Assembly (NCBI RefSeq): GCF_000745475.1
Contig: NZ_JQJJ01000017.1
Coordinates: forward strand, 1 to 64,000
Source of the DNA: Allobosea sp. UNC402CLCol
GTDB lineage: Bacteria > Pseudomonadota > Alphaproteobacteria > Rhizobiales > Beijerinckiaceae
Length of the DNA stretch: 64,000 nt
Direction of reading: 5' to 3'
Shown here: one piece after another, positions 39,135 to 56,365 of the stretch
Layout of the letters: each line of letters opens with the position of its first letter
How positions within the stretch are numbered: position 1 is the first letter of the stretch
Position numbers and translations under genes: made by a program
The notes under the pieces: generated by a model
What the model was told of the DNA's origin: nothing
The model's database searches: none
The model's input: only the letters and a program-made list of their open reading frames with translations

Positions 39135-39790
39135 GACGCAGCCTTTCCGGTCTTCATGTAGAAGCTGTCGACGCGCCCTTCCGCGATCGCGGCGAGCGCG
39201 TTCGCCTCGTGCTCTTCCTGCTGGCGCACCAGTTCGAGGAGCTCGGTCGCGTCGGTACGATCGAAGGCGACGATGCCGTCCGCATCGCCGACCACGACGT
39301 CACCCGGCATCACCACCATGCCGTCGATCGAGACCGGGACGTTGATCTCGCCCGGCCCGCTCTTATAGGGGCCGCGATGGGTCACGCCGCGGGCGTAACA
39401 GGGAAAATCTGCCTGCTGGAACGCATCGACGTCGCGGATCGCCCCGTCGATGACGAAGCCGGCGACACCCATCGCCCGCGCCCGGCTCATCATGATCTCG
39501 CCGACGAGCGCCTGGGTCAGGTCGCCACCACCATCGACGACGAGGATATCGCCCGGGCGCAGCAGCTCATAGGCGCGGTGCAGGGTCTGGTTGTCGCCCG
39601 GTCTCGTCTTCACCGTCACCGCCGTCCCGAGAAGTCGGCCGGAGCGATGATAGGGCCGCAGCGCCCTGGTCCCATGCAGGCGGTTCATCACGTCGGAGAT
39701 GATCGAGACGGGGGCGGTCCGGAAGCCGTCGAGGATCGCCTCCGGCACCGCAGGGCTGTTCGGATTGGTACGGTGGCCGATCAACGACAT
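39131..39790 (-). CDS. RraA-like aldolase/decarboxylase family protein
   Basis: A 219-residue member of the RraA/HMG-aldolase family. Visible are ISDVMNRL near the start, RPGDNQTLHRAYELLRPGDI and VVDGGGDLTQALVGEIMMSR with the metal and substrate loop GE-M-x-x-x-A, and VIDGAIRDVDAF with the catalytic Arg-Asp. Such enzymes cleave 4-hydroxy-4-methyl-2-oxoglutarate or 4-carboxy-4-hydroxy-2-oxoadipate, or decarboxylate oxaloacetate. I chose the ATG at 39790; the upstream ATG at 39829 has no ribosome site. It leads the operon and probably acts on the product of the aminotransferase. Confidence 0.88.
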   Translation of the reverse strand: MSLIGHRTNPNSPAVPEAILDGFRTAPVSIISDVMNRLHGTRALRPYHRSGRLLGTAVTVKTRPGDNQTLHRAYELLRPGDILVVDGGGDLTQALVGEIMMSRARAMGVAGFVIDGAIRDVDAFQQADFPCYARGVTHRGPYKSGPGEINVPVSIDGMVVMPGDVVVGDADGIVAFDRTDATELLELVRQQEEHEANALAAIAEGRVDSFYMKTGKAAS

Positions 39791-39850
39791 GGAAGATTCC
39801 GTCCCCAAGAGCTTGGTTTCGGGAATCATGTGACATGGCGAGAATGACAG

Positions 39851-39883
39851 AAAGCGAATATATTTCTCACAAGCTATCGCTTT
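39851..39883. promoter_or_regulatory. Inverted repeat between the RraA-like gene and lysR
   Basis: AAAGCGA (39851-39857) and TCGCTTT (39877-39883) are exact complements with a 19-base AT-rich centre. The repeat lies in the divergent gap, 40 bases from the lysR start, where a LysR autoregulatory site is expected. Confidence 0.5.
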
Positions 39884-39923
39884 TCTTCATCATGAAGTGG
39901 CGCCGAGCGATGGGGGGAAAGCG

Positions 39924-40832
39924 ATGCCGGCGAGTCTGAGGCAGATCGAGGCCTTCTACTGGACCGCCAGACTTGGCGGCTTCACCGAGGCGTCGCGGCA
40001 TCTCAATCTGGCGCAATCGACGGTGTCGAAGCGGATCATCGAACTCGAGGCCGTGATCGGCGGGCCCCTCTTCGACCGCACGAGCCATGCCTTGCGCCTG
40101 ACCCGGGCCGGCGAGGCGAGCCTGCCGATCGCCACAGAGATGCTCGCGCTGGAACCGCGCTTCCGTGAGGCGGCCGGCGGGGCCGCGACCTTCTCGGGGC
40201 CGTTCCGCTTCGGCACGACCGAGCTCGTCGCCCTGACCTGGTTGCCAAAGCTGATCGTCGCGATGAAGCACGACTACCCCAATGTCGTGCCCGTTCCCGA
40301 AGTCGCGGCCAGCGTCGACCTGTTCGGCAAGCTGGCGGCCACCGAGCTCGACCTCGTCATCGCGCTGGATCCCCCGCAAACGCCGGAATTCACGGCATTG
40401 CCGCTCGATACGGTTCAGCTCGAATGGGTGTCGGCGCCGGGCTTCGGCCCGGGGGAGAACCTGATCCCGCTCGGCGAGATGGCGCGTTATCCGATCCTGA
40501 CGCAGACCCAGGGCTCCGGCCTGCAGAAGCTGGTGCTCGACTGGGCGGTGGCCAATGGACTCGCGATCAACCACATCGTTCAATGCAACAGCCTGAACGT
40601 GCTGGCAGCCCTTGCCGCCGCCGGATTGGGCGTCACCTTCCTGACGGCCAGCTATTTCGGCCCGGAGATCGCCAACGGCCGGCTGCGCGTCATCCGGACC
40701 GAGCCGCCGATTCCACCGCTCCGTTACCATGCGGTGCACCGCAAGGGCGACATCTCGCCGCTCGCCGCGCGCATTGCGGCAATCGCTCAGCAATCCTGTG
40801 ACTTCAGCGCCCGCAGCCTGCCGCGGGATTGA
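39924..40832 (+). CDS. LysR family regulator of the amino-acid operon
   Basis: A 302-residue LTTR. The helix-turn-helix is at residues 3-62 (LRQIEAFYWTARLGGFTEAS, LAQSTVSKRIIELEAVIGGP). The effector domain begins near residue 90 (FRFGTTELVALTWLPKLI). GGGGGGAAA precedes ATG 39924 at a good distance, which decides this start over the in-frame GTG at 39897. It is divergent from the RraA/aminotransferase/ABC operon and most likely activates it. Confidence 0.93.
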   Translation: MPASLRQIEAFYWTARLGGFTEASRHLNLAQSTVSKRIIELEAVIGGPLFDRTSHALRLTRAGEASLPIATEMLALEPRFREAAGGAATFSGPFRFGTTELVALTWLPKLIVAMKHDYPNVVPVPEVAASVDLFGKLAATELDLVIALDPPQTPEFTALPLDTVQLEWVSAPGFGPGENLIPLGEMARYPILTQTQGSGLQKLVLDWAVANGLAINHIVQCNSLNVLAALAAAGLGVTFLTASYFGPEIANGRLRVIRTEPPIPPLRYHAVHRKGDISPLAARIAAIAQQSCDFSARSLPRD

Positions 40833-41247: not shown

Positions 41248-41853
41248 TCAGATGCTGACGAGCTCAGGTGCTGTTAGCTCCGCCTCCATCTCCTTCATAT
41301 CCTCGAAGCGGTCGGCGATGCGCGGATGGGCGCGGCCGCCATCGGAGGCGCCGATCGCGACGACGATCTCGTCGGGGCCGGGCGCATCGGCGATCTGGAA
41401 GGTTGCCGTGATGAAATGCGAACGCTTGCCGGTCTCGCTCTTGTGGATCATCGGCAGCGAAATCAGCGCGCCCGGCGCGGTGCGCGTGTTGGTGAAGCTC
41501 AGGAAGGCGGTTCCCGAGACCGCCTCGCGGAAGGTGTTGCCGAAGCGCAGCGTATGGATGAGCGCCGAAGCGTGCTCGATCTCGCCATTTACGCCGACGA
41601 TCGCGGCCTTGCCATAGGCTTCGACCCGCTCCCCCGGCAGCACGGCGATCAGCCGGCGCGTCATCTCCAGGCCGAGCGGGCGCGCGATGCGCATGATCTC
41701 GGGACGAAGGTTCTCAACGAAGCTCTGGCCGGCCCAGGGGTTCTTCACCACTGCCGCGACAACCGTCATGGTGATCGGACGCGGCGCCGCCTTGCCCCCC
41801 TCGATTATCGTCTCCTCGACGAAGGTCGCGATCTTGCGCACCCCGATATCCAT
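41248..41853 (-). CDS. Amino acid synthesis (AA_synth, PF06684-like) family protein
   Basis: A 201-residue protein. It opens with IRKIA-like VRKIATFVEETIIEGGKAAP and contains VVAAVVKNPWAGQSFVENLR, GEIEHASALIHTLRFGNTFR and LISLPMIHKSETGKRSHFIT, the conserved blocks of this family. The family name comes from context only; the activity is not established. It is divergent from the regulator of the monooxygenase locus. Members of the family commonly neighbour luciferase-like monooxygenases and amide or heterocycle catabolic genes. Confidence 0.88.
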   Translation of the reverse strand: MDIGVRKIATFVEETIIEGGKAAPRPITMTVVAAVVKNPWAGQSFVENLRPEIMRIARPLGLEMTRRLIAVLPGERVEAYGKAAIVGVNGEIEHASALIHTLRFGNTFREAVSGTAFLSFTNTRTAPGALISLPMIHKSETGKRSHFITATFQIADAPGPDEIVVAIGASDGGRAHPRIADRFEDMKEMEAELTAPELVSI

Positions 41854-41910
41854 GGCCCTCTCCCGACAGCTCAGTGGCGATGACGGCCGAGGCTAGTGTT
41901 CGTCAGCCGG

Positions 41911-43788
41911 ATGTCTTCCTATGATTGCGAGGAAGCTTGGCCGTTGGAATGCTGCGAGGCTGCGCAAGATAGGAAGGGGGACGAAGTGCTTACGCCTGTT
42001 TCGCAAATGCATTCGCTCAGGGAGGTGGCGAGCCGGATCAACTCCGGCGTCGATCTCCCCGGCATCCTGTTCGACCTGGTCAAGGCGGCCTGTGACCATG
42101 GCGGCTGGAGCATGGGCTCGATCATGTCGATCGACGTAGGGCATGGCTACGCCCATGTCTCCGTGCGTCATGACCCGACGCTGCTGCGACGCCAGCTCGA
42201 GGATCGCTGGGAACTGGCGACGAGCCCGGCGCTCTTGGCGTTGCGGACGGGAGAGCCGGTCTACATCCCCGACGCACGGGCCTCGGAGGAATTCCCGGGC
42301 TACCGGCGCGAGGCCTTCGAGCGCGACTACCGTTCGGTTCTGGTGATGCCGCTGACCAGCGTCGATGCCGAAGGGCGCCCGATGGTGCTGAGCCTCATCT
42401 CGCGCGACATCAAGCCGCTGCCCTCCGACGACCTCGCCTTCATGGGCATGATCGCCCATCTCGGCGCGATCGCAGTCGAGCGCGAGCATCGTTTATGGGC
42501 AGAGCGGCGCGCAGCAGAGGAGCAGCGTCGCGCGCTGCATGCCCAGGGAGCCTTGCTGCAGGAAGTCCTGTCGGGCGGATCGGCGGATGCCCTGGCGGCT
42601 CGGCTCGACGAGTTGCTGCGATGCGCGGTGCTTGTGGTGGATTTCGCCGAAAACGGACTCGTCGCCGCAGGTTCGCCAGCCCCCGTCTCCTATGACGAAG
42701 CTGCGTGGCGCACCTTGTTGGCGACGGGGCAGGCCGATCCCGTCATCGCCACGGTCAAGGCCGCGGTGGCCGACGGCGAGGCAAAAATTGGCAGCATCTC
42801 CATCGAAGCCGGCGGCGGAAAGCTGGTCTTGCCTGCCTTGATCGAGCCCTTGAGCGTCGATGCGGATATCGTCGGTGCCCTCGTCCTGTTCGACGCCGAG
42901 CCGGGTGACGATCTGCGGCGGCTCATGCTGGACAGCGCCAAATTCGCGCTGAGCGTCCAGATGATGCGCAGCGTGATCCAGTTCCGCTTCGAGACACGCA
43001 CGCTGACCGAGTTGTTCTTCGAGATCGTCGAACGGCGCTGGCGCGATCCGGAGGACATCGCGCGCCGCGCGCGCCATCTCGGCCTGCCGCTATCGCGCGC
43101 GCTGCGCATGCTGGTCGTGGATCTTCCCGGTGCCGCAGGCGGCGAGCGCGAGCCGCTGGAGGCCCATCAAAGCGTCCAGCGGCTCGCGCGGCAACATGGC
43201 CTGAGCTGCCATGTCATCACGATCGGAACCGGCTTGGTCTGCCTGCTCCCAGCGCAGGCGGGCGAGGAGCGAGAGCGGCTCGACCGTTTCGCGCAGCGCC
43301 TGGTCGAAACGCTGCGCCATGGCCCGCGTGGCGAGCCCATCGCCGTCATCGGCGGCGTCTGTGACGGGCTCGACGCCTATTCCGGAGAATGGGAGCGGGC
43401 CTGGCGAATGCTGCGGATCGCGCGCAGCTTCCGGCGCAGCGGCGTGCTTTCGGCGCTCGATTTCGGCCCTTTGCCGATGCTGATTGGCGCCGCCGATTCG
43501 GCCGAGGTGCGGGCCTTCGTCGAGGGCAGCATCGGCCGGGTAGCATCGCATGATCGCGAGCATGGCACGCCCTATCTGGAAACGCTGACAGCCTATCTGC
43601 GCGCCGGCTGCCGCAGCCAACCCTGCGCCGATGCGATGGCGCTGCACGTCACGACGCTGCGCTATCGGCTCGCCCGGATCGAGGAGTTGTTCCAGATCAA
43701 TCCGGACACGCCGGAAAGGCGCTTTACCCTGGAACTGGCGTTGAAGATGCACGACGTCATAGAAGGCCGAACCGCCGCTTACCCCTGA
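41911..43788 (+). CDS. GAF-domain PucR/CdaR-type transcriptional regulator
   Basis: A 625-residue regulator. An N-terminal GAF-like sensor (about residues 30-185, with FDLVKAACDHGGWSMGSIMS) is followed by a middle GGDEF-like/CdaR region. The C-terminal PucR helix-turn-helix has YLETLTAYLRAGCRSQPCAD then LHVTTLRYRLARIEELFQI. ATG 41911 is used; a GTG at 41896 would add five residues, and neither has a good ribosome site. It is followed by the flavin monooxygenase genes in the same direction and probably activates them on sensing the substrate. Confidence 0.9.
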   Translation: MSSYDCEEAWPLECCEAAQDRKGDEVLTPVSQMHSLREVASRINSGVDLPGILFDLVKAACDHGGWSMGSIMSIDVGHGYAHVSVRHDPTLLRRQLEDRWELATSPALLALRTGEPVYIPDARASEEFPGYRREAFERDYRSVLVMPLTSVDAEGRPMVLSLISRDIKPLPSDDLAFMGMIAHLGAIAVEREHRLWAERRAAEEQRRALHAQGALLQEVLSGGSADALAARLDELLRCAVLVVDFAENGLVAAGSPAPVSYDEAAWRTLLATGQADPVIATVKAAVADGEAKIGSISIEAGGGKLVLPALIEPLSVDADIVGALVLFDAEPGDDLRRLMLDSAKFALSVQMMRSVIQFRFETRTLTELFFEIVERRWRDPEDIARRARHLGLPLSRALRMLVVDLPGAAGGEREPLEAHQSVQRLARQHGLSCHVITIGTGLVCLLPAQAGEERERLDRFAQRLVETLRHGPRGEPIAVIGGVCDGLDAYSGEWERAWRMLRIARSFRRSGVLSALDFGPLPMLIGAADSAEVRAFVEGSIGRVASHDREHGTPYLETLTAYLRAGCRSQPCADAMALHVTTLRYRLARIEELFQINPDTPERRFTLELALKMHDVIEGRTAAYP

Positions 43789-43894
43789 AGCGGCGAATCT
43801 TTTTGCGTGCGTGCCCTCCGTTTCGGAGGAAGAAAGGCTGCGGGCGGCTGCCTAGCCTCATCCTCATTGGTGACGAGCACCGAAGAGGATCGCC

Positions 43895-44896
43895 ATGCTG
43901 GCGACGGCGCCCCAACATTCCACCACGATCGACCCCGTCGCCTTGCGGCGGGCTTTTGGGACCTTCCTGACTGGCGTCACGATCGTCACGACGCACGACA
44001 CCGAGGGTCGTCCGCGCGGCATGACCGCGAATTCCTTCACCTCCGTCTCGCTGGATCCGCCCTTGTTGCTGGTGTGCGTCGGCAAGGGGGCGTCGAGCTT
44101 TCCCGCCTTCGAAACGGCGGATTGCTTCGCGGTCAACCTGCTGCAGGAGGAGCAGAAGGACCTCTCGAACCTCTTCGCCTCCAAATCTCCGGATAAATTC
44201 GCCAACGTCGCTTATGACAGCGTCCATACCGGCGCGCCCGTACTCGGCGATTGCCTGACCTGGTTCGACTGCAGCCTGCACCAGCGCGTCGATGCCGGCG
44301 ACCACATCGTGCTGATCGGACAGGTGCAGGCATTCGGCACCAGCCCCTCCGCGCCGCTGGCCTTCTGCCGCGGCCGCTATGCGGCGGTGAAGGACCCGCT
44401 GCCGCCGGGCTGGCTCGCGTCGAGCAGCATGATCGTCAACTACCTCGTCGAGTCCGATGGCAAGCTGCTGCTCTGCCGCGAGGGCGATGGCGGCTGGGCC
44501 CTGCCGCGAGCGACCCGCCGCATTCTCGACGGAAGGCTGCCGCTCGCCAATGGCGAGAGCCTGCCGCTGCTGCCGGAGGACACCTTCCTCTATTCGGTGT
44601 TCGACGTCGCCGATGGCGATCCAGGCCATCTTGTCTACCGGGCGCGACTCGCAGGTGATGCCGGCGACATTTGCCTGCCCGAGGGCGTGCGCTTCTTCGG
44701 CTTCGACGAGTTGCCCTACGAACAGATCCTGACGCGGGAAACCCGCAGCGTTCTTCGCCGCTATGTCAGCGAGAGCAACGGCCGCCGCTTTGGCATCTAC
44801 ATCGATTCCCATGATGGCGGACGCTTCGCGATGGTCGAGGACACCCGGCCCTGGGCCGGCATTCCGCAACTCTGGGAGCGCGGCGGCGCATCATGA
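43895..44896 (+). CDS. Flavin reductase with C-terminal Nudix-like domain (TgnB-like)
   Basis: A 333-residue protein. Residues 15-165 are a DIM6/HpaC-type flavin reductase domain: RAFGTFLTGVTIVTTHDTEG, MTANSFTSVSLDPPLLLVCV, AVNLLQEEQ and HIVLIGQVQAF. It supplies reduced FMN to a partner oxygenase. Residues 175-330 form a second domain that starts SSMIVNYLVESDGKLLLCRE and looks Nudix-like, but without a full Nudix box. Reductases of the trigonelline monooxygenase type have, as I recall, a similar length. The next gene overlaps by four bases (ATGA). Confidence 0.88.
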   Translation: MLATAPQHSTTIDPVALRRAFGTFLTGVTIVTTHDTEGRPRGMTANSFTSVSLDPPLLLVCVGKGASSFPAFETADCFAVNLLQEEQKDLSNLFASKSPDKFANVAYDSVHTGAPVLGDCLTWFDCSLHQRVDAGDHIVLIGQVQAFGTSPSAPLAFCRGRYAAVKDPLPPGWLASSSMIVNYLVESDGKLLLCREGDGGWALPRATRRILDGRLPLANGESLPLLPEDTFLYSVFDVADGDPGHLVYRARLAGDAGDICLPEGVRFFGFDELPYEQILTRETRSVLRRYVSESNGRRFGIYIDSHDGGRFAMVEDTRPWAGIPQLWERGGAS

Positions 44897-46404
44897 AGAC
44901 GACGGTCGAAACCCTTCAGGGCTCGCGCATCGGGCATTTCATCGACGGCTCCTTCGTCGCGCCGCAAGCTGGCGTCTACGTGCCGAGCTATGATCCGACC
45001 ACGGCCGAGCCATGGTACGAGTTCGCCCTGGGCGATGCCGGCGATGTCGACGCCGCCGTCCGCTCGGCCCGCGCCGCGCTGATCAACCCGGCCTGGCGGC
45101 GCATGACGCAGACCGATCGCGGCAAGCTGGTGCGCCGGCTCGGTGAGCTCGTTCTGGTCCATGCCGAGGAATTGGCCCAGCTCGAATGCCGCGACAACGG
45201 CAAGCTGATCAAGGAGATGCGCGCCCAGATGCGGGCGATCCCGGACTCCTACGGCTACTTCGCGGGGATGGCCGACAAGCTCCAGGGGGACACGATCCCG
45301 GTCAACAAGCTCGACACGCTGAACTTCAACCTGCGCGAGCCGATCGGCGTCGTCGCGATGATCATCCCCTGGAATTCGCCGCTGATGATGCTGACGGGCA
45401 CGCTGGCGCCCTGCCTCGCCATCGGCAACACGATCGTGGTCAAGCCCTCCGAGCATGCCACGGCCTCGGCGCTGGCGCTGGCGGAACTGGTGATCGAGGC
45501 CGGCATTCCGCCTGGCGTCGTCAATGTCGTCACCGGCGACGGCATGACCACCGGTGATGCGCTGACCCGCCATCCCGGCATCGCGAAATACGTCTTCACC
45601 GGCTCGACCGACACCGGCCGCAAGATCGCCGGAAACGCAGCGGGCAATCTCGTGCCCTGCCAAATGGAACTCGGCGGCAAGTCGCCCCATGTCGTGTTCT
45701 CGGATGTCGACATCGAGCGCGCGGTCAACGGCGTCGTCTCCGGCATCTTCGCTGCGGCCGGCCAGACCTGCGTCGCCGGTTCCCGCTGCTTCGTCGAGGC
45801 GCCGGTCTATGACCGCTTCGTCGAGGCGCTGGTCGAACGCACCAGGCGCGTCAAGGTCGGCCATCCCATGGCCGAGGACACCGATATCGGGCCGCTCGCG
45901 CTCGCGGCGCAACTCGACAAGGTCGAGCATTTCGTCGGCTCCGGCGTGCGCGAGGGCGCCAGGATCGCCGTCGGCGGCCGCAAGCCGCAGAACGAGGCGC
46001 TGGCGCGCGGCTGGTACTACGAGCCGACGGTGCTGACCGAAGCGCGCAACGACATGAGTTTCATGCGCAACGAGATCTTCGGCCCCGTCGTCGGTGTCGT
46101 GCCCTTTTCGAGCGAGGAGGAAATGATCTCGCTCGCCAACGACAGCGAATACGGGCTCGCTTCCGGTATCTGGACCCGCGATATCGACCGGGCCATGCGC
46201 TTCGCCCGCAATGTCGAGGCTGGCACCGTCTGGATCAACACCTACCGCTCGGCCGCCTTCATGTCTGCGAACGGAGGCACGAAGAAGAGCGGCTATGGCC
46301 GCCGCGGCGGCTTCGAGGTCATGCGCGAGTTCTCGCGCCTGAAGAACGTCGTCATCGACTACTCGGGTGCCATGCAGGACCCGTTCGTCATCCGCCTGCG
46401 CTGA
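44893..46404 (+). CDS. NAD(P)-dependent aldehyde dehydrogenase (TgnC-like)
   Basis: A 503-residue ALDH. Visible are VAMIIPWNSPLMMLTGTLAP with the catalytic Asn, the cofactor loop FTGSTDTGRKIA, the general-base Glu in MELGGKSPHVVF, the nucleophilic Cys in AAGQTCVAGSR and the C-terminal EIFGPVVGVVPF. It starts inside the flavin reductase stop, so the two are translationally coupled. In the proposed pathway it would oxidise the aldehyde or lactol formed after ring opening by the monooxygenase. Confidence 0.93.
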   Translation: MKTTVETLQGSRIGHFIDGSFVAPQAGVYVPSYDPTTAEPWYEFALGDAGDVDAAVRSARAALINPAWRRMTQTDRGKLVRRLGELVLVHAEELAQLECRDNGKLIKEMRAQMRAIPDSYGYFAGMADKLQGDTIPVNKLDTLNFNLREPIGVVAMIIPWNSPLMMLTGTLAPCLAIGNTIVVKPSEHATASALALAELVIEAGIPPGVVNVVTGDGMTTGDALTRHPGIAKYVFTGSTDTGRKIAGNAAGNLVPCQMELGGKSPHVVFSDVDIERAVNGVVSGIFAAAGQTCVAGSRCFVEAPVYDRFVEALVERTRRVKVGHPMAEDTDIGPLALAAQLDKVEHFVGSGVREGARIAVGGRKPQNEALARGWYYEPTVLTEARNDMSFMRNEIFGPVVGVVPFSSEEEMISLANDSEYGLASGIWTRDIDRAMRFARNVEAGTVWINTYRSAAFMSANGGTKKSGYGRRGGFEVMREFSRLKNVVIDYSGAMQDPFVIRLR

Positions 46405-46438
46405 TGCGCTGTCCCGCACGTTTGCACGGAGGCAAGCC

Positions 46439-47524
46439 ATGAAATTCGCTCTCTCGATCAATATGGAGCGCTTTTCACCCGATGAATCGATGCAGGACGC
46501 CATGTCCAACATGCTGGCGCTTGCCCGCATGGCCGACGAGGGCGGCTTCGAGACGTTGTGGACCGCCGAGCATCACACCATCGAATGCACGATCTCGCCG
46601 AATCCGTTCCAGACGCTGGGCTGGCTCGCCCAGCATACCAGCCGGATCAGGCTGGGCACGGCGACGCTGGTCGCGCCCTACTGGTCGCCGATCCGGCTGG
46701 CCGGCGAGGCGGCGCTCTGCGACCACCTGACCGGCGGCCGCCTCGAAATCGGCATCGCGCGCGGCGCTTATCAATACGAGTTTGACCGCATGGCCGGCGG
46801 CATGCCCCAGCAGGAGGGCGTCGCCTATATGAAGGAACTCGTCCCTGCGGTTCAAAAGCTCTGGGCCGGCGACTACGCCCATGACGGGCATTACTGGCGG
46901 TTCCCGCTCGCGACCTCGGTACCCAAGCCGCTGCAGAAGCCGCATCCGCGCATCTGGGTCGCGGCGCGCGATCCCGGCACCTTCGACTGGGCCGTCGGCA
47001 TTGGCGCCAGTATCCTCTCGACCCCGCTTTCGGCGCCGGTCGCGGAGATCGGCGTACTCGCCGAGAAGTTCCGCAAGGCCTGCGCCGATCATCCCGAGCG
47101 CCCGCGCCCGAAATTCATGATGCAGCGCCGCACCTGCGTCTATGACAGCAGGCAGGATTGGCAGGAGATCGTCCGATACAGCGTCGATTACGGGCGCTAT
47201 TTCGAGAATCTGATGCAGAATATCGGCACGGTGAAGAACGGCTTCCCCGAGGCCGTGCCATTCGAGACGGTCGCCAATCGCGGCAGCTACGACCCAAAGG
47301 CGATCCGCGATAACCTGGTCTTCGGCACGCCGGAAGAGGTCATCTCCAAGCTCGAGGTCTACGAGGCCGCCGGCGTCGACCAGTTCTGTCTTGGCCTCTC
47401 CTACAATCTGCCCTTCGAGTTGCAGGTCCGGACGCTCAGGCTCTTCATCGACGAGGTGATGCCGCATTTCGCAGCCCGCGAACGCGAGGCCGCCCGTCCG
47501 CGCCTCGCTGCGGTCGGGGCCTGA
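46439..47524 (+). CDS. Luciferase-like (LLM) flavin-dependent monooxygenase (TgnA-like)
   Basis: A 361-residue TIM-barrel oxygenase of the bacterial luciferase family. It has MKFALSINMERFSP at the start, ADEGGFETLWTAEHHTIECT with the conserved AEHH, SRIRLGTATLVAPYWSPIRL, and GRLEIGIARGAYQYEF. Helper reductase and ALDH genes lie directly upstream. The enzyme probably uses FMNH2 and oxygen to open a nitrogen heterocycle. GGAGG lies nine bases before ATG 46439. Confidence 0.93.
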   Translation: MKFALSINMERFSPDESMQDAMSNMLALARMADEGGFETLWTAEHHTIECTISPNPFQTLGWLAQHTSRIRLGTATLVAPYWSPIRLAGEAALCDHLTGGRLEIGIARGAYQYEFDRMAGGMPQQEGVAYMKELVPAVQKLWAGDYAHDGHYWRFPLATSVPKPLQKPHPRIWVAARDPGTFDWAVGIGASILSTPLSAPVAEIGVLAEKFRKACADHPERPRPKFMMQRRTCVYDSRQDWQEIVRYSVDYGRYFENLMQNIGTVKNGFPEAVPFETVANRGSYDPKAIRDNLVFGTPEEVISKLEVYEAAGVDQFCLGLSYNLPFELQVRTLRLFIDEVMPHFAAREREAARPRLAAVGA

Positions 47525-47529
47525 CGGCG

Positions 47530-48375
47530 ATGGTGGATGCGGCTGCCCTGACACAGGCGCCTGACGTGAACGGCACGCTCCTTCGCGACGGCGTCGAGCT
47601 GAACTACCGGCTGAGCGGCTCGGGCGGTCTGCCGCTCGTGCTGGTCCATGGCGTCGGCTCCTATTGCGAGTCCTGGGACGGGGTGATCACGCGGCTGTCC
47701 GACCGCTTCCGCATCTTGAGCTTCGACCTGCGCGGCCATGGCCGCTCGGCGCGGGTCAAGGGCCGCTATGAGATCGACGATTTCACTGGCGACGTGCTCG
47801 CGCTTGCCGATCACACCGGCTTCGGCCGCTTCGATCTCGCCGGTTTTTCGCTCGGCGGCCTGATCGCGCAGCGCCTCGCTCTGACCCACCCCGAGCGGCT
47901 GCGGCGGCTGGTGCTGCTGTCGACGGTCTCTGGCCGGACCGACGAGGAGCGGGAGCGCGTGCTGGCGCGCCTCGCCGCGCTCAAGGCCGGCGATCGCGGT
48001 TCGCACTACGACGCCTCGCTGTCGCGCTGGCTGACCGAGGATTTTCAGGCGCGCAATCCCGAGCTGATCGTCGAACTCCGCCGCCGCAACGCTGAGAACG
48101 ATCCCGATTGCTACGCATCGGCCTACCGCGTGCTGGCCGAGACTGATTTCGGCGGGTTGATCGACCAGATCCGGCTGCCGACACTGATCATGACCGGCGA
48201 GCACGATCAGGGCTCGAACCCACGCATGTCGCGCTACATGCATGAGCGCATTCCGGACTCCCGGCTGCACATCCTGCCGGGGCTGCGTCACTCCCTGCTG
48301 AACGAGGCACCCGGCCAGGTTGCTGCGCTGATGCGGGGCTTTCTCACCGAAGCCGCCGAGGAGGGCCGCGCGTGA
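47530..48375 (+). CDS. Alpha/beta hydrolase (TgnD-like)
   Basis: A 281-residue hydrolase. The oxyanion HGVGSYCESWD is near residue 40, the nucleophile elbow GFSLGG is near residue 110, the acid is in TGEHDQGSNP, and the catalytic His is in LPGLRHSLLNEAP. It follows the oxygenase gene by five bases and overlaps the NIPSNAP gene by four. In trigonelline-type catabolism a hydrolase of this fold splits the ring-opened N-methylformamido succinate derivative. That assignment is by context. Confidence 0.92.
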   Translation: MVDAAALTQAPDVNGTLLRDGVELNYRLSGSGGLPLVLVHGVGSYCESWDGVITRLSDRFRILSFDLRGHGRSARVKGRYEIDDFTGDVLALADHTGFGRFDLAGFSLGGLIAQRLALTHPERLRRLVLLSTVSGRTDEERERVLARLAALKAGDRGSHYDASLSRWLTEDFQARNPELIVELRRRNAENDPDCYASAYRVLAETDFGGLIDQIRLPTLIMTGEHDQGSNPRMSRYMHERIPDSRLHILPGLRHSLLNEAPGQVAALMRGFLTEAAEEGRA

Positions 48376-48686
48376 TCGTCGAGGAGCGCATCTACCGCAT
48401 CCGAACGGGCAGGATGGGGACCTATCTCAAGCTTGTTCGCGAGGAAGGGCTCGCGATCCAGCAGCCCATCCTCGGCCGCCTTATCGGCTACTTCACCACC
48501 GAGATCGGTGCACTCAGCCAGGTCACGCATCTCTGGGCCTATGAGGATCTGGAGGACCGGCGGCGCAGGCGCCAGCAGCTTGCCGACGAGCCGCGCTGGC
48601 AGGCCTTCCTGCCCAGGCTTTCCGAGAACATCGAGCAGGCCGAGAACAAGATCCTGCTGCCGACCGACTTTTCGCCGCTGCGCTGA
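48372..48686 (+). CDS. NIPSNAP family protein
   Basis: A 104-residue ferredoxin-like dimeric barrel protein. It has VEERIYRIRTGRMGTYLKLV, LGRLIGYFTTEIGALSQVTH and LWAYEDLEDRRRRRQQLADE, then WQAFLP, which are the NIPSNAP hallmarks. Its ATG lies within the hydrolase stop (ATGA), so it is part of the operon. Its function in catabolism is unknown; it may bind an unstable intermediate. Confidence 0.93.
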   Translation: MIVEERIYRIRTGRMGTYLKLVREEGLAIQQPILGRLIGYFTTEIGALSQVTHLWAYEDLEDRRRRRQQLADEPRWQAFLPRLSENIEQAENKILLPTDFSPLR

Positions 48687-48753
48687 CCGCGCAGCGCTCC
48701 TGGGAGAACGGGCGGAAGGTCGACCCCACCGGACAATGAGAAGGGGAACAGCG

Positions 48754-49923
48754 GTGAGCGAAAGGCTGCGTATCGAAAACCTCTACAAGGTTTTCGCCAA
48801 GGACCCGACCGAGGCGCTGCAGATCCTGCGCGGCGGCGGCACGAAGGACAGCGTCTTCGGGAAGCTCGGCCAGGTTGTTGGGCTCGATGGCGTCTCGCTC
48901 AGCGTCCCGTCCGGCGCGATGTACATGATCATGGGTCTGTCCGGCTCCGGCAAATCGACGCTCGCACGCTGCGTCAACCGGCTGAACGAGCCCAGCGCCG
49001 GGCGCATCCTGCTGGACGGTCAGGACATCGTGCCGCTCTCCGAGAAGGCGCTGCGCGAGGTCCGGCGCACGCGGATGTCGATGGTGTTCCAGCACTTCGC
49101 GCTGCTGCCCAACAAGCGCGTCATCGAGAATGTCGAGTTCGGGCTGAAGCTGCGCGGCGTCGCGCCGGCCCAGCGCCGCAAGCGCGCCGAGGAGATTCTC
49201 TCCGTCGTCGGGCTTGCGCGCTGGGGCTATCACCTGCCGCACGAGCTGTCGGGCGGCATGCGCCAGCGTGTGGGGCTCGCGCGGGCCCTCGCGACCGATG
49301 CCGACATCCTGATCATGGACGAGGCCTTCAGCGCGCTTGATCCGCTGATCCGCACCGAGATGCAGGACGAGTTGCTGCGCCTCCAGCGCACGCTGAACAA
49401 GACCATCCTGTTCATCACCCATGATTTCCAGGAAGCGCTGAAGCTGGGCACCCGCATCGCGATCATGTCGGAAGGCAAGCTCGTGCGCGAGGGCACGCCG
49501 CAATCGATCGTGCTCGAGCCGGGCAGCGACTATGTCGCCGCCTTCACGCGCGAAGTCGACAGGGCACGGCTGTTCGACGCACACTCGGTGATGAAGGCGC
49601 CGACCGTGCTCTGGCGCGGGCCGAACGGCATCGTCGTCGGAGGCGCCGGGGGCGGCCTCCTGCTCGACCAGCAGGAGCATGTGGTCGCCGGACTCGGCGA
49701 AGCCCAGATCGCCACGCTGAAGCAGACCGGCGAATTGCCGGCCGGGCGTGGCCCTTATCTCTGCGTTCCCGAGGGCGCCAGGCTCGTCGATGTCGCGCGC
49801 AGCTACCGCTCCGATCACGCCATGGGCGTCGTCGACGACAGTGGCAAGCTCGTCGGTCTGCTCGGCGCCGAGCAGATACTCGCCCGTATCGCCAACCTGC
49901 CGAGCCCGGGAGAAGCCGCATGA
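48754..49923 (+). CDS. Betaine-type ABC transporter ATPase (ProV-like)
   Basis: A 389-residue ATPase. The N-terminal extension typical of ProV (LYKVFAKDPTEALQILRGGG) comes first. Then follow Walker A GLSGSGKST, the Q-loop MVFQHFALLP, signature LSGGMRQRVGLARAL, Walker B ILIMDEAFSALDPLIR and THDFQEAL. The C-terminus has one CBS-like segment (GVVDDSGKLVGLLGAEQILA). I chose the GTG at 48754 because AAGGGGAA lies just before it; an ATG at 48736 would add six residues. It follows the NIPSNAP gene by 67 bases. Confidence 0.92.
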   Translation: MSERLRIENLYKVFAKDPTEALQILRGGGTKDSVFGKLGQVVGLDGVSLSVPSGAMYMIMGLSGSGKSTLARCVNRLNEPSAGRILLDGQDIVPLSEKALREVRRTRMSMVFQHFALLPNKRVIENVEFGLKLRGVAPAQRRKRAEEILSVVGLARWGYHLPHELSGGMRQRVGLARALATDADILIMDEAFSALDPLIRTEMQDELLRLQRTLNKTILFITHDFQEALKLGTRIAIMSEGKLVREGTPQSIVLEPGSDYVAAFTREVDRARLFDAHSVMKAPTVLWRGPNGIVVGGAGGGLLLDQQEHVVAGLGEAQIATLKQTGELPAGRGPYLCVPEGARLVDVARSYRSDHAMGVVDDSGKLVGLLGAEQILARIANLPSPGEAA

Positions 49924-50867
49924 TCAAGGCTGACGATCTCGCGATCTTCCCGGTCGACCAGTGGATCCAGGACGGAGTCCGCTGGCTGGCCCTGAACCTG
50001 CGGCCGCTGTTCCAGGCGATCAAATGGCCGGTCGAAAGTCTGCTCGGCTTCAACGACTGGGTGCTGCATGCGATTCCGTTCCCGGTGATGCTCCTGCTGA
50101 TCGGCTTGATCGCCTGGCGCAGCGCCGGCCGGGGCGTCGCGGCCTTCAGCGTCGTCTCTCTGGTCGTCATCGCCATGCTCGGCGTTTGGACCGAGGCGAT
50201 GACGACGCTCTCGCTAATCACGACCGCGATCGTTTTCTGCGCGGTGATCGGCATCCCGATCGGTATTCTCTGCGCCCGCAGCGACCGGGTCTGGAACGTC
50301 GTCCGCCCAATCCTCGACATCATGCAGACTACGCCGACCTTCGTTTACCTCGTGCCGGTGGTGATGCTGTTCGGCGTCGGCACTGTCCCGGGCGAGGTCG
50401 CGGTGGTCACTGCTGCGGTTCCCCCGCTGATCCGCTTCACCAATCTCGGCATCCGCATGGTCGAGCACGAGATCGTCGAGGCTGGTCTCGCCTTCGGCGC
50501 GGACAGCCGCCAGTTGCTCTGGGAGATCCAGCTTCCGCTTGCGATCCCGTCCATCCTCGGTGGGCTCAACCAGACCGTTCTGACCGCGATGGTGATGTCG
50601 GTCGTCGTCGCGATGATCGGCGCCGAAGGGCTCGGCCTCGTCGTGCTCCAGGGCCTCGGGAGGCTCGATGTCGGCCGCGCCGCCATCGGCGGCATCGCCA
50701 TCGTCCTGCTGGCGATGATGCTCGACCGCATCACCCAGAAACTCGCCGAGACGAAACGTGATCAGCGCACCTCCCTGCTTCAGGCGCTGATGCGCTTCCT
50801 GCGGGGAAGCCGCCGCGAGGAGATCACCGCGCCTGCGCCGCCGGAGGCCAGCCGACAGGCGGCGTGA
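49920..50867 (+). CDS. Betaine-type ABC transporter permease (ProW-like)
   Basis: A 315-residue permease. The cytoplasmic or periplasmic N-terminal part carries an amphipathic segment, and five or six helices follow. The ATPase-contact region is EHEIVEAGLAFGADSRQLLW, and NQTVLTAMVMSVVVAMIGAE is highly typical of ProW. The start overlaps the ATPase stop by four bases. About 30 residues at the C-terminus are basic and variable. Confidence 0.94.
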   Translation: MIKADDLAIFPVDQWIQDGVRWLALNLRPLFQAIKWPVESLLGFNDWVLHAIPFPVMLLLIGLIAWRSAGRGVAAFSVVSLVVIAMLGVWTEAMTTLSLITTAIVFCAVIGIPIGILCARSDRVWNVVRPILDIMQTTPTFVYLVPVVMLFGVGTVPGEVAVVTAAVPPLIRFTNLGIRMVEHEIVEAGLAFGADSRQLLWEIQLPLAIPSILGGLNQTVLTAMVMSVVVAMIGAEGLGLVVLQGLGRLDVGRAAIGGIAIVLLAMMLDRITQKLAETKRDQRTSLLQALMRFLRGSRREEITAPAPPEASRQAA

Positions 50868-50946
50868 CCGACCGATTTCAACGAAGAACCCGCCCACAAA
50901 GGGCGGGCCGGGGACAAGACCAGCCATAACCGAAGAGGAGAACGCG

Positions 50947-51987
50947 ATGATCAGCCTGGCAGCCAGACCGTTTATCAAGACTGTTGCCGCGGCGGCGCTC
51001 GCCGCAGTCACCCTGCAGGGAGCGGCGTTCGCCCAGGCCTTGCCGGGCAAGGGCAAGACCGTGCGCTACGCCCAGAGCGACAGCCTCGGCGCCAATTACG
51101 TGACTGCCCAAATCATCAGCCGGGCGATGAAGGAGCTCGGCTACGAGGTGAAGCTCTCGACGCTCAACACGACGCTGTTCTTCCAGGCTGCAGGGCAGGG
51201 CGATCTCGACCTCGCCACCGACGTCAACATGCCCCAACGCGAACCCGCCTTCCGGGCCGTCGAGAAGCAGGCCGAGCTGCTCGGCAGCGGCATGATCGTC
51301 GGCGGCGGCATCAACGGCTACCTCATCGACAAGAAGACCGCGACCGCACACAACATCACCACGCTGGTGCAGATGAAGGATCCCAAGATCGCCGCGCTGT
51401 TCGGCAAGGATGGGCGCGCGGACCTGATCAACTGCGACCCGGGCTGGAGTTGCGGCGACGTGGTCGACTTCCAGCTCGACAAGTTCGGCCTTAAGGACAC
51501 CGTCCGCTCGGTGCGCGGTAAATACGAGACCCTGATGGTCGAGGCGGTGGCGCGCGTGAAGCGCGGCGAGCCCGCCTTCTTCTATGCGTGGAGCCCGTCC
51601 TGGGTGAACAACGCGCTGATCCCGGGCGAGGACGTCGTCTGGCTGCCCACGCCGGAGGATGCGCTGCCGCCGAACGTGCCGAACCGCGGTTCAGCCCTGG
51701 TACCGGGCGTCAAAGGCTGCGCCGGCGGAGCCGATCCCTGCCGCATGGCGATGTCGTCCTGGAACTGGGCCTCTGTCGCGAACAAGCAGTTCGTCGCGGC
51801 CAACCCGGCGATCAAGACACTGATCGAGCAGATCAAGTTCCCGCTCGCGAGCTGGTCGGCCTGGGAGTTCAACATCAACAAGAACGGCGCCAGCAGCGCC
51901 AACATCAACCGCATGGCCGATGAGTGGATCACCCAAAACAAGGCCATGTTCGACGACTGGGTGGCGAAGGCCAGAGGCGGCGTCTAA
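50947..51987 (+). CDS. ProX-like betaine-binding periplasmic protein
   Basis: A 346-residue binding protein of the ProX family. The signal peptide ends at AFA, followed by QALPGKGKTVRYAQSD. Strong blocks are GYLIDKKTATAHNITTLVQM, KDPKIAALFG, CDPGWSCGDVVDF and AFFYAWSPSWV. Two of the three tryptophans that form the aromatic cage in E. coli ProX are kept (CDPGW and YAW). The first is replaced: DVNMPQ stands where ProX has VNWTP. This suggests a ligand other than glycine betaine. GAAGAGGAG precedes the ATG. Confidence 0.94.
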   Translation: MISLAARPFIKTVAAAALAAVTLQGAAFAQALPGKGKTVRYAQSDSLGANYVTAQIISRAMKELGYEVKLSTLNTTLFFQAAGQGDLDLATDVNMPQREPAFRAVEKQAELLGSGMIVGGGINGYLIDKKTATAHNITTLVQMKDPKIAALFGKDGRADLINCDPGWSCGDVVDFQLDKFGLKDTVRSVRGKYETLMVEAVARVKRGEPAFFYAWSPSWVNNALIPGEDVVWLPTPEDALPPNVPNRGSALVPGVKGCAGGADPCRMAMSSWNWASVANKQFVAANPAIKTLIEQIKFPLASWSAWEFNINKNGASSANINRMADEWITQNKAMFDDWVAKARGGV

Positions 51988-52180: not shown

Positions 52181-53770
52181 CTATTTGTGTTTCACGTCGA
52201 CTGCCAATGTGAGCTCGTCGATGCGTGGCTGGTAGAACACCTTGCCTCGCGTCGCCCAGATGTTCTTGAAGTGGTAGAGCGGGAGGATGGCGACGTCGGT
52301 GGAGACCAGCTTCACCGCGTCGAGCACGAGGGCCTCGCGCTTGGTGTCGTCGATCTCGGCGATGGCGCTGGCATTGAGCGCGTCGAGCTTCGAATTGGAA
52401 TACTGCGCCCAATTGTAGAGGCCCCAGCCGGTCTCCTTGTTGCGCGTGCCGACGAGATCCCTGAGCAGGCCCGTGCCTTCCATGGAATTGTTGCTCCAGC
52501 TCCCGAGATAGGCGGTGAACTGGCTCTTGGCGCCTCGCGACGAGTAGACGCTGAAGGGGATGGCGTCGATCGCGGTGTCGACGCCGATGCGGCTCCACAT
52601 CTGCGCGATCGCCTGCGCGACCTCGACGCTGTAGGGCACCCGGTCGTTTGAGGTCGAGAGCGTGATCTTGAAGCCGTTGGGGAATCCGGCCTCGGCCAGA
52701 AGGCGCTTGGCCTTTTCCGGATCATAGGCCGGGACCGGGGTCTTGGGATCGTATCCCATGATCCCGGGCGGCAGCCATTGGCCCGTGGGATTGGCGGTGC
52801 CCAGCATGATCCGCTCCGTGATGCCGGCACGGTTGATCGCGATCGAGAGCGCCTCGCGGACCTTCTGGCTGGTCAGCGGCGACGGATCGAGCTTGGCGCC
52901 CTTCTTGTCCGTTATCGGCGGCGCATCCTCGGCCGGCTTGATCATCGGGACGATGTAGTTGACGCGCATGCCAGCGACCGAGGCAACGTGGATGTTCTCG
53001 GACTTCTCGAGGCGCGGGAGATCGCTGGCGGAGGGCGTGTCGATCAGGTCGAGATCGCCGGACAGCAGGGCGGCCGTCCGTGCGGCGGTATTCGGGATCA
53101 GCCGGATCGTCAGCGTCGTCCAGGCGGGCTTCTCGCCCCACCAGTTGTCGTTGCGGGCGAATTCGACGCGCTCGCCGGGCGTATAGCTCACCAGCTTGAA
53201 CGGGCCGGTGCCGATCGCCGCCTTGCCGCTGTTGTAGTCGGCCGTGGTCGCATCGGTGCCGGCGTGACGCGAGACGATGGCGAGGCGGGTGAGGTCGCTC
53301 GGCAGGTTCGGCACTGGCGACGTGGTGGTCAGGCGGATCACGGTGGGGCCGACGACCTCGGTGTCCTTGATCGGCCGGATGATGCCGGCGAAGCCGCCGA
53401 GATTGTTGGGAACGTCGATGGCGCGCTTCAGGGTGAAGGCGACGTCGTCGGCCGTGAAGGGCCTGCCGTCATGCCAGGTCACGCCTTCGCGCAGCTTGAA
53501 CTCCCACACGGTCGGGGAGATCGCGCGCCATTCCGTAGCGAGACCGGGAGTGAGCTTGCCCTCCGGGCTGCGATGCACCAGCCGGTCGAACATGTGGAAC
53601 GCGACCAGGTTGTTGGGCGTCGTGCTGTAGAAATGAGGGTCGAGCGAATTGACCGCTCCGCCGATTCCCATGGTCAGCTTCTCGGCGAAGGCAGGCGCGG
53701 CGCCCAGGCACAGAAGGAGGGTCGAGGCGAGCGCGAGGCGCTTTACCGGCGAGGTGAGGGTGGCAGCCAT
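52181..53770 (-). CDS. Peptide/organic-solute ABC binding protein (family 5, DppA type)
   Basis: A 529-residue extracytoplasmic binding protein. The signal peptide LALASTLLLCLGAAPAFA is followed by EKLTMGIGGAVNSLDPHFYS. The family signature FKLREGVTWHDGRPFTADDV is clear. Other landmarks are GTGPFKLVSYTPGERVEF and VREALSIAINRAGITERIML. I chose ATG 53770 because the longer frame runs through an AT-rich operator. The matching permeases lie at 58914-60790; no ATPase gene is in the window. The neighbours suggest an acidic substrate rather than a peptide. Confidence 0.93.
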   Translation of the reverse strand: MAATLTSPVKRLALASTLLLCLGAAPAFAEKLTMGIGGAVNSLDPHFYSTTPNNLVAFHMFDRLVHRSPEGKLTPGLATEWRAISPTVWEFKLREGVTWHDGRPFTADDVAFTLKRAIDVPNNLGGFAGIIRPIKDTEVVGPTVIRLTTTSPVPNLPSDLTRLAIVSRHAGTDATTADYNSGKAAIGTGPFKLVSYTPGERVEFARNDNWWGEKPAWTTLTIRLIPNTAARTAALLSGDLDLIDTPSASDLPRLEKSENIHVASVAGMRVNYIVPMIKPAEDAPPITDKKGAKLDPSPLTSQKVREALSIAINRAGITERIMLGTANPTGQWLPPGIMGYDPKTPVPAYDPEKAKRLLAEAGFPNGFKITLSTSNDRVPYSVEVAQAIAQMWSRIGVDTAIDAIPFSVYSSRGAKSQFTAYLGSWSNNSMEGTGLLRDLVGTRNKETGWGLYNWAQYSNSKLDALNASAIAEIDDTKREALVLDAVKLVSTDVAILPLYHFKNIWATRGKVFYQPRIDELTLAVDVKHK

Positions 53771-53781
53771 ACGCGATCCCC

Positions 53782-53801
53782 TTATTATTGGTATATAATA
53801 A
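53782..53801. promoter_or_regulatory. AT-rich inverted repeat upstream of the binding-protein gene
   Basis: TTATTA and TAATAA are exact complements around TTGGTATA, twelve bases before the start codon. The surrounding AT-rich island contrasts with the GC-rich genes. An AT-rich stretch sharing ATATCAAT occurs at about 57190-57205, before the other genes of the locus. Both are candidate sites for the IclR regulator encoded next door. Confidence 0.45.
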
Positions 53802-53922
53802 TTGATATTTGAGGACGATTTTTGCTGACTGTCAAGCGAGCGCAAGCCCGATTGCGCGCGAGCGACGCCCGCAGGTTGAAACCAAGAGATTCCGATTGAG
53901 TGAGCGGGCGCCGAGGCCCGGC

Positions 53923-54756
53923 TCAGGAGGCGAGCGTTTCCGTCGCTTTCGTCGCGGCCTCGAGCACGAGCGGCGCGAGTTCCGCGATCGCGGTCTCGCG
54001 GCTGTAGCGCGTGGTCAGGGTCGAGAGGTTGATCGAGCCGATCGCGCGGCCGGCGCGATCATGAACCGGCGCGGACACCGAGATGCTGCCCTGCTCCATG
54101 TTCTTCTCGGTGACGGAGAAGCCGACCGCCTTGGCCGCTTCGAGGATGCGCATCATCTCGGCCGCGTCGCGCGCCTTGGTGCGCTGTGACACCGAGGGGG
54201 CGGACGCTTTCCAGACCTTCTCGACATGGCTCGGTGCGGAATGGGCGAGCAGCATCTGGCCGGACGAGGAGGAGAGTGCCGGAAACCGGGTGCCGATGGG
54301 GAGGTTGACCGACGAGATATGCGTGCTCGGTATCGTTGCGATGATGACGATGTCGGCGCCGTCGACCTCGACCCAGGAGATCGTCTCCCGGGTCTTCTCG
54401 CTCAGGATGCGCATCTGCGGATAGGCCGCTTCCAGCCCTTGGTTCGACGAGCTGGCATTTTGCGCGAAACGGAAGACCTTCCGCGACAGGCCGTAGCGCT
54501 TCGTCTGGGCGTCGCGATCGAGATAACCGAGGCGCTCGAGCGTATAGATGAAGCGCTGCGAAGCGCTGCGGCCGAGCCCCGTACGGATCGCGATGTCCGA
54601 CAGGCTCAGCGTCGCGGCCGTCTTGTCGAAGGCCTCCAGGACCTTCATCGCCTTGGCGACGGAGGCGACGAAGAGGCGCTCGTCGATCTCCGGCGCCCCT
54701 TCGCCGCGGTCGGCCAGGGGTGCGGCTGGCGCAGATTTCGACATCGACGACACCAT
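53923..54756 (-). CDS. IclR family transcriptional regulator
   Basis: A 277-residue regulator. The helix-turn-helix is at about residues 30-85 (VAKAMKVLEAFDKTAATLSL, GLGRSASQRFIYTLERLGYL), with an effector domain from about 105 (GADIVIIATIPSTHISSVNL; GFSVTEKNMEQGSISVSAPV). Start ATG 54756 is used, though 54744 is also possible. It is placed between the binding-protein gene and the acyl-CoA ligase gene, on the same strand, and likely controls the 52-61 kb locus. Confidence 0.92.
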   Translation of the reverse strand: MVSSMSKSAPAAPLADRGEGAPEIDERLFVASVAKAMKVLEAFDKTAATLSLSDIAIRTGLGRSASQRFIYTLERLGYLDRDAQTKRYGLSRKVFRFAQNASSSNQGLEAAYPQMRILSEKTRETISWVEVDGADIVIIATIPSTHISSVNLPIGTRFPALSSSSGQMLLAHSAPSHVEKVWKASAPSVSQRTKARDAAEMMRILEAAKAVGFSVTEKNMEQGSISVSAPVHDRAGRAIGSINLSTLTTRYSRETAIAELAPLVLEAATKATETLAS

Positions 54757-54812
54757 GGTGTGCGGAGACCTTTCGCGGGGCTGTCCAAGCTGTAGCAGCT
54801 TCGTCCGGCGCC

Positions 54813-56339: not shown

Positions 56340-56365
56340 CGTCGTCGTCCTGTCGGCGTTCCGGT

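Follow-up and report, generated by a model that had tools for sequence, protein, structure and literature searches.

A probable pyridine betaine gene cluster of Allobosea sp. UNC402CLCol falls outside the tgn lineage of trigonelline genes

Rhizosphere bacteria make use of plant betaines such as trigonelline and its relatives, and the trigonelline (tgn) genes of Acinetobacter baylyi are the described system closest to the locus considered here, a ten-gene cluster at positions 41248-51987 of a 64,000-nucleotide stretch of Allobosea sp. UNC402CLCol (contig NZ_JQJJ01000017.1; hereafter the window). The chemistry of the Tgn route was reportedly described by Perchat et al. in 2018. In the type strain of A. 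baylyi (locus L164), a DUF1330 gene and a GntR-type regulator gene, both on the minus strand, are followed by genes for an AA_synth protein and an alpha/beta hydrolase, then by tgnA, tgnB and tgnC; after tgnC come a cytosine-permease type transporter, an unlabelled protein, a succinate semialdehyde dehydrogenase (SSADH) and a carboxymuconolactone-decarboxylase type protein. These labels were assigned by similarity to an Acinetobacter plasmid with annotated tgnA, tgnB and tgnC, and we equate the hydrolase with TgnD, the SSADH with TgnE and the AA_synth protein with TgnF by inference. An original prediction, made from the letters of the window alone, had described the Allobosea cluster as a Tgn-like operon joined to a betaine importer. 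We think it probable (about 0.6), by analogy with Tgn, that the cluster encodes a pathway, Tgn-like in its working and separate in lineage, that on its own imports a pyridine betaine and opens the ring, with a relative of trigonelline somewhat likelier as its substrate than trigonelline itself.

The window contains an operon with homologues of TgnA, TgnB, TgnC and TgnD. Measured against the A. baylyi proteins, its reductase is 37% identical over 282 residues, its luciferase-like oxygenase 40% over 359, its aldehyde dehydrogenase 42% over 480 (against 35% for the SSADH of that species) and its hydrolase 32% over 234, and the AA_synth proteins of the two loci share 52% over 195 residues. All four enzyme roles named in the original prediction therefore have homologues (32-42%), although it had swapped two letters, since in the annotated record tgnA is the reductase and tgnB the oxygenase. 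The two loci thus share a two-component luciferase-like oxygenase, an aldehyde dehydrogenase, an alpha/beta hydrolase and an AA_synth protein, 32-52% identical, and yet they differ in several respects: the regulator is of the GntR type in A. baylyi and of the PucR type in the window, the gene order is different, a cytosine-permease type transporter stands where the window has an ATP-binding cassette (ABC) importer, the window locus lacks an SSADH gene, and its oxygenase lies outside the TgnB group. Loci on Sinorhizobium meliloti pSymA and in related rhizobia carry the same enzyme set as the window, and that of S. meliloti also has a NIPSNAP gene and an ABC importer; however, these loci belong to the TgnB group, have GntR regulators and use another family of substrate-binding protein. 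Identities of the window oxygenase to its tgn-type counterparts in Acinetobacter PK01, Leisingera and S. meliloti are 43-45%. Among the papers listed in a literature search, none was seen to describe this gene set outside tgn. By analogy, the cluster probably handles a pyridine betaine in the way the tgn pathway handles trigonelline, and to that extent the idea of a Tgn-like operon with a betaine-type importer stands; as a claim of membership in tgn it does not, because the oxygenase falls outside the TgnB group and the regulator differs.

We compared the oxygenases in a 77-row tree, built by a quick method, in which 32 TgnB-type rows (A. baylyi included) stood apart from 43 window and intermediate rows. 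Within these 43 rows, a group of 21 window-like rows had a support of 99 in the Shimodaira-Hasegawa-like approximate likelihood ratio test (SH-aLRT). Of the 80 named tgn-type loci, every fourth entered the tree (20 in all, with A. baylyi); the other 60, the duplicate loci L189 and L231 and the later loci L256-L265 were left out. The window-like oxygenases found in genome searches are 62-87% identical to the window protein and the 80 tgn-type oxygenases 68-97% identical to a Leisingera query, whereas the window oxygenase is only 40-45% identical to tgn-type ones. When 91 tgn-type and 21 window-like oxygenase sequences were set side by side, 30 columns reached at least 90% conservation in both groups with a different residue in each, and 92 were conserved alike. 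Judged by sequence, the cluster is a lineage separate from the tgn genes and is best regarded as a second lineage with this kind of pathway. The oxygenase's predicted fold (mean predicted local distance difference test score, pLDDT, 89.4) is a luciferase barrel, with 2i7g (Z 36.2, root-mean-square deviation, rmsd, 2.5, 329 residues aligned), 7bip (Z 35.9, rmsd 2.2, 317 aligned) and luciferases as the closest solved structures, a match that carries no information on substrate.

The genes around the two kinds of oxygenase form distinct sets. We counted genes by thresholds of our own, within the stretch examined around each locus, in 21 window-like loci (the window, others among the matches listed, and hand-picked plasmid matches) and in 80 tgn-type loci. 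The latter are the best 80 of at least 586 by similarity to the Leisingera protein, so deeper branches are under-represented, and the stretch was shorter than 20 kb for 21 of them. Genomes of the order (297) and class (385) were sampled, with at most 6 and at most 5 candidates scored per genome, respectively, and 11 regions (7 window-like, 4 tgn-type) were read from among 439 plasmid records. A PucR-type regulator gene was present in all 21 window-like loci and a GntR-type one in none, whereas the 80 tgn-type loci had 75 GntR and no PucR. The enzyme partners recurred on both sides, with AA_synth in 19 window-like and 78 tgn-type loci, the reductase in 19 and 78, the aldehyde dehydrogenase in 19 and 80, and the hydrolase in 17 and 79. 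NIPSNAP (12 and 14), a decarboxylase-type gene (8 and 20) and SSADH (2 and 20) were less regular. ProX was found in 15 window-like and no tgn-type loci; the window-like set also had ProW in 14 and an amino-acid-type ABC importer in 5, and the tgn-type set had an S. meliloti-type ABC binding protein in 23 and a cytosine-permease type transporter in 15. The regular gene set around window-like oxygenases is not a matter of chance, and the regulator and importer types do not overlap between the 21 and the 80 loci. The proposed match of the regulator with Tgn was accordingly not supported, as A. baylyi, too, has GntR, and the AA_synth and NIPSNAP proteins, which had been presented as additions to the Tgn set, occur in 78 and 14 of the tgn-type loci, TgnF being already described (PMC7913881). 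PucR combined with an importer of the ProX or amino-acid type, as opposed to GntR, could serve as a marker that would keep both lineages from being called trigonelline degradation. Named window-like hosts include Azospirillum, Mesorhizobium, Rhizobium, Shinella, Agrobacterium, Thalassospira and Caballeronia, so the lineage spans Alpha- and Betaproteobacteria.

Both lineages can occur in one genome. Among 13 wholly searched genomes with a window-like oxygenase (G000, G001, G006, G008, G010, G015, G020, G028, G079, G116, G174, G233 and G743), 6 also had a tgn-type one, as judged by tree position or by identity to A. baylyi TgnB: G008, G020, G028, G116, G174 and G743, with the tgn-type locus labelled only in part in G028 and G116. 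Since G743 (L183, Burkholderia sp. Ac-20379) had been included because of its tgn-type locus, the fair count is 5 of 12; G153, which lies outside the 21-row group, is not counted in the 6 of 13. Conversely, a window-like oxygenase was present in 1 of 48 wholly searched tgn-type genomes. Within the genus, none of the 18 genomes lacking a window-like oxygenase had a tgn-type one (E <= 1e-60). Some bacteria, then, carry two parallel enzyme sets for such betaines, which argues against simple redundancy of the two without proving that their substrates differ. Together with the conserved oxygenase differences, this coexistence makes a relative of trigonelline somewhat more likely as the substrate than trigonelline. 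We give about even odds to the idea that these are sister lineages for two betaines, the GntR/tgn one serving trigonelline and the PucR/ABC-importer one an isomer or derivative whose genes in soil and plant bacteria have gone unnamed.

Alternatively, the cluster may be a second type of trigonelline locus, with the same substrate and steps under another regulator and importer, the succinate semialdehyde being oxidized by an SSADH encoded elsewhere. The Tgn-type enzyme set, with its TgnF-like protein, is consistent with this, as are the pyridine-degrading genes beside an Azospirillum oryzae locus (see below) and the window's own genome, in which no tgn-type oxygenase was found and the other luciferase-like matches were 29-43% identical over parts of the protein. 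That genome does encode a 52% identical homologue of the Acinetobacter SSADH outside the locus (G000:C9:718884), as the original prediction had anticipated, and with SSADH in just 20 of the 80 tgn-type loci, its absence from the window says little. We had considered that absence as evidence against trigonelline and rejected it, because 60 of the 80 tgn-type loci likewise show none in the stretch examined. Given the separate oxygenase group, the conserved differences between the groups and the presence of a tgn-type locus as well in 6 of 13 genomes, we regard a second trigonelline locus as possible, if rather doubtful.

The importer is tied to the enzyme genes within the genus. Across 25 genomes, a ProX at least 79% identical to that of the window was present in each of the 7 that have the oxygenase; the other 18 had none (E <= 1e-30). 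In the genus the cluster is thus never without a close ProX, although adjacent importer and enzyme genes may simply have travelled together. ProX passes the NCBIfam ProX equivalog (388.5 versus a cut-off of 215 bits), whereas ProV falls just short of the ProU cut-off (323.2 versus 326.6, TIGR01186) and ProW well short of the ProW equivalog (321.7 versus 439); the C terminus of ProV has a CBS match that is below its own cut-off. The importer resembles E. coli ProU (ProVWX) in having three components and a ProX homologue, and differs from it in these sub-threshold scores and in one pocket position. Three tryptophans, W65, W140 and W188, form the quaternary ammonium cage of E. coli ProX (1R9L). 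At these positions, the window ProX has tryptophan for W140 and W188, but methionine for W65 when VNW is aligned with VNM, a place where HMMER put a gap. The nearest relatives among those listed have phenylalanine (most) or methionine at that position, and five more distant window-like loci (L067-L071) have tryptophan. From the sequence, a changed ProX pocket is likely, and binding of a betaine is plausible.

An importer that serves osmoprotection and lies beside an unrelated catabolic operon by chance would fit the score of ProX against a glycine betaine/L-proline model. We consider this very improbable, given that the close ProX occurs in the genus only with the cluster, that its gene is co-directional and closely spaced with the enzyme genes, and that five window-like loci without ProX have another ABC importer instead, which lies directly downstream of the enzyme genes in the four that are annotated. 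The sole window-like locus with neither importer (L237) reaches the end of its contig just past NIPSNAP.

If the cluster works as Tgn does, the ProX/ProV/ProW importer would bring in a zwitterionic N-methylated pyridine carboxylate, and the reductase would supply reduced flavin to the luciferase-like oxygenase, which would add oxygen and open the ring to give an N-methyl-N-formyl-enamine semialdehyde. The aldehyde dehydrogenase would convert the aldehyde (or its lactol) to an acid, and the alpha/beta hydrolase would remove the formyl group, whereupon the enamine would fall apart into formate, methylamine and a C4-C5 acid that could enter central metabolism. The AA_synth protein would take the supporting part of TgnF, and the PucR-type protein would sense the substrate and switch the operon on. 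Every chemical step, like the substrate, is modeled on Tgn, whereas gene content, homology, grouping, coupling of the genes and coexistence were observed directly.

A pyridine substrate is supported by the neighbors of the cluster on an Azospirillum oryzae plasmid, where it adjoins annotated genes for a 2,5-dihydroxypyridine 5,6-dioxygenase, an FAD-dependent monooxygenase and an alpha/beta hydrolase, as well as an Asp/Glu racemase and an N-carbamoylsarcosine amidohydrolase; we read these as a nicotinate (nic) cluster. They speak against a non-pyridine substrate, that is, another positively charged nitrogen ring or a betaine opened by the oxygenase, as does the fact that the oxygenase's enzyme partners are the Tgn set too. 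Luciferase-like proteins are nevertheless chemically broad, with RutA, SfnG, bacterial luciferase and RslO1 among the structural neighbors, and importers of the ProX and amino-acid types take up a range of small molecules, so we keep a non-pyridine substrate as a quite unlikely alternative.

By analogy, the leading single candidate for the substrate is homarine (N-methylpicolinate), whose ring opening would give a product at the level of 2-oxoglutarate or N-methylglutamate with no need of SSADH. Taken by itself, we still rate homarine as unlikely. It would explain a cluster without SSADH, a gene that only 2 of the 21 window-like loci have, and a window-like member occurs in Thalassospira marina. 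Like the proposed pathway, homarine catabolism degrades an N-methylated pyridine carboxylate, and its published route involves N-methylglutamate dehydrogenase (Mgd), as reported in the passages of PMC13390433 that cite Ferrer-Gonzalez et al. (2026). However, a relative of the Mgd/sarcosine-oxidase-type large subunit was found in none of the 21 window-like loci within the stretches examined, and an Mgd-type subunit is present in 5 of the 80 tgn-type loci (82-94% identical in four of Acinetobacter, 32% in one). Relatives of the Acinetobacter subunit in the window's genome are 35-36% identical and indistinguishable from sarcosine oxidase. Moreover, the named hosts among the plasmid matches listed are mostly soil or plant bacteria, whereas homarine figures as a marine metabolite in PMC8269262. 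In the four Acinetobacter tgn-type loci (L153, L154, L155 and L164), the sarcosine-oxidase-like gene lies in the same stretch as the tgn genes and is perhaps there for the released methylamine.

Several observations weigh against a separate Tgn-like pathway for a relative of trigonelline. The deep split in the oxygenase tree has support of only 92 and 87, its root is poorly supported, and the program flagged a meeting of long branches, which is why we based the separation of the lineages also on identity and gene content. Position-specific differences between oxygenases are expected after any long divergence, and a genome may have two differently controlled clusters for a single substrate. Pyridine-degrading neighbors accompany just 1 of the 21 window-like loci (and 0 of the 80 tgn-type loci) within the stretches examined, and those of A. 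oryzae could equally favor trigonelline, which is N-methylnicotinate. On the import side, one of the three cage tryptophans is changed, so that a betaine ligand is not assured, and the five window-like loci noted above carry a different importer. As for homarine in particular, PMC8269262 argues from steric hindrance that TgnA/TgnB are unlikely to act on it, and reports that Ruegeria pomeroyi grew less effectively on homarine than on trigonelline.

The AA_synth protein is a near-constant partner in both lineages, and its biochemical role is thinly described in the literature examined. In PMC7913881, TgnF, a homologous protein, is described as stimulating TgnE-dependent oxidation of succinate semialdehyde in A. 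baylyi, although the authors could detect no such stimulation for their own member of the family. Since A. baylyi also has the protein and TgnF is described there as a homologue, AA_synth is no addition to the known tgn system. The two tgn-type loci in which it is missing (L133 and L147) lie near a contig end, their stretches beginning 1788 and 202 bases before the oxygenase. Within the genus (25 genomes), an AA_synth protein at least 75% identical to that of the window tracks the same 7 oxygenase-bearing genomes; a distant one (40-42%) occurs in 5 of the 18 genomes without a window-like oxygenase, so only the close form is coupled to the cluster. Its predicted fold (mean pLDDT 82) is that of 3byq (Z 22.5, rmsd 2.5, 176 aligned) and 2qtp (Z 20.8, rmsd 1.5, 145 aligned). 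A role as a Rid-like imine hydrolase was considered and dropped, as Rid proteins, chorismatase and chorismate mutase reached only Z 5-6.5, a level that is called common.

All ten genes of the cluster were confirmed on the strands and coordinates in Table 1 and contain no internal stops. The AA_synth gene is divergent from the regulator gene, and from the flavin reductase through ProX (43895-51987), all on the plus strand, neighboring genes either share 4 bases or are separated by no more than 79, a spacing as in one operon. Our protein queries for the oxygenase began at 46436, one codon upstream of its ATG at 46439, and the ProV query was taken from 48745, which is in frame but is not a start codon.

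Table 1. Genes of the cluster, with positions in the window
Feature	Position	Strand	Basis or remark
AA_synth (PF06684/DUF1185) protein	41248..41853	-	Pfam 3e-67; homologue of A. baylyi AA_synth, taken as TgnF
GAF + PucR-type (GGDEF_2, HTH_30) transcriptional regulator, probable cluster regulator	41896..43788	+	Pfam
Flavin reductase, TgnA-like, with C-terminal extension of ~165 residues	43895..44896	+	Pfam Flavin_Reduct
Aldehyde dehydrogenase, TgnC-like	44893..46404	+	Pfam Aldedh
Luciferase-like flavin-dependent oxygenase, TgnB homologue in a separate group	46439..47524	+	Pfam Bac_luciferase
Alpha/beta hydrolase, TgnD-like	47530..48375	+	Pfam Abhydrolase_1; GFSLG nucleophile motif in sequence
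NIPSNAP protein	48372..48686	+	Pfam NIPSNAP; best solved match 1vqy, deposited as AGR_pAT_315
ProV-type ATPase	48754..49923	+	Pfam ABC_tran; start GTG 48754 or ATG 48736
ProW-type permease	49920..50867	+	Pfam BPD_transp_1
ProX-type substrate-binding protein	50947..51987	+	Pfam OpuAC; homologue of E. coli ProX 1r9l

The last ~163 residues of the flavin reductase have no Pfam match, and yet the protein matches 3rh7 over residues 10-311, and reductases of similar length were found in both lineages; the extension may bind substrate or regulate the flavin supply. The carboxymuconolactone-decarboxylase gene present in 8 of the 21 window-like loci was not found in the window, and its relatives elsewhere in the genome are 38% identical at best. 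The upstream flank (37914-40832) encodes a class I/II aminotransferase, an RraA-like protein and a LysR regulator, and the downstream flank (52181-56900) a family 5 solute-binding protein and an AMP-binding enzyme; neither flank shows a clear link to the cluster.

Other window-like loci vary in their composition. L070 and L071 (genomes G079 and G028) have the oxygenase, ProX and a distant PucR with no aldehyde dehydrogenase, hydrolase, AA_synth or other enzyme gene above our thresholds, apart from a reductase-like open reading frame at 33% in L070, and perhaps represent a different pathway with the same importer. In L068 and L069 (G116 and G079), we found no alpha/beta hydrolase gene next to the oxygenase, and a nearby open reading frame is 28-29% identical to an isochorismatase-type amidase, a possible swap of the hydrolytic step. 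In L231 and L065 (G008 and G020), the 5 kb or so next to the AA_synth end also contain an SSADH-like gene (47-48%) and a second ProX (56-57%), which suggests a larger betaine island. Outside the window-like loci, at L247 (G531), a relative of the intermediate oxygenase group lies with genes for a LysR regulator, an aldehyde dehydrogenase, a hydrolase and a thiamine-pyrophosphate enzyme, near a formate-tetrahydrofolate ligase and a choline-sulfatase-like gene, another combination with the same oxygenase family. On the tgn-type side, L256 in a genome of 1.4 Mb (G577) has a run of AA_synth, hydrolase, oxygenase and aldehyde dehydrogenase genes with no reductase found beside it, and its oxygenase is 56-57% identical to tgn-type oxygenases.

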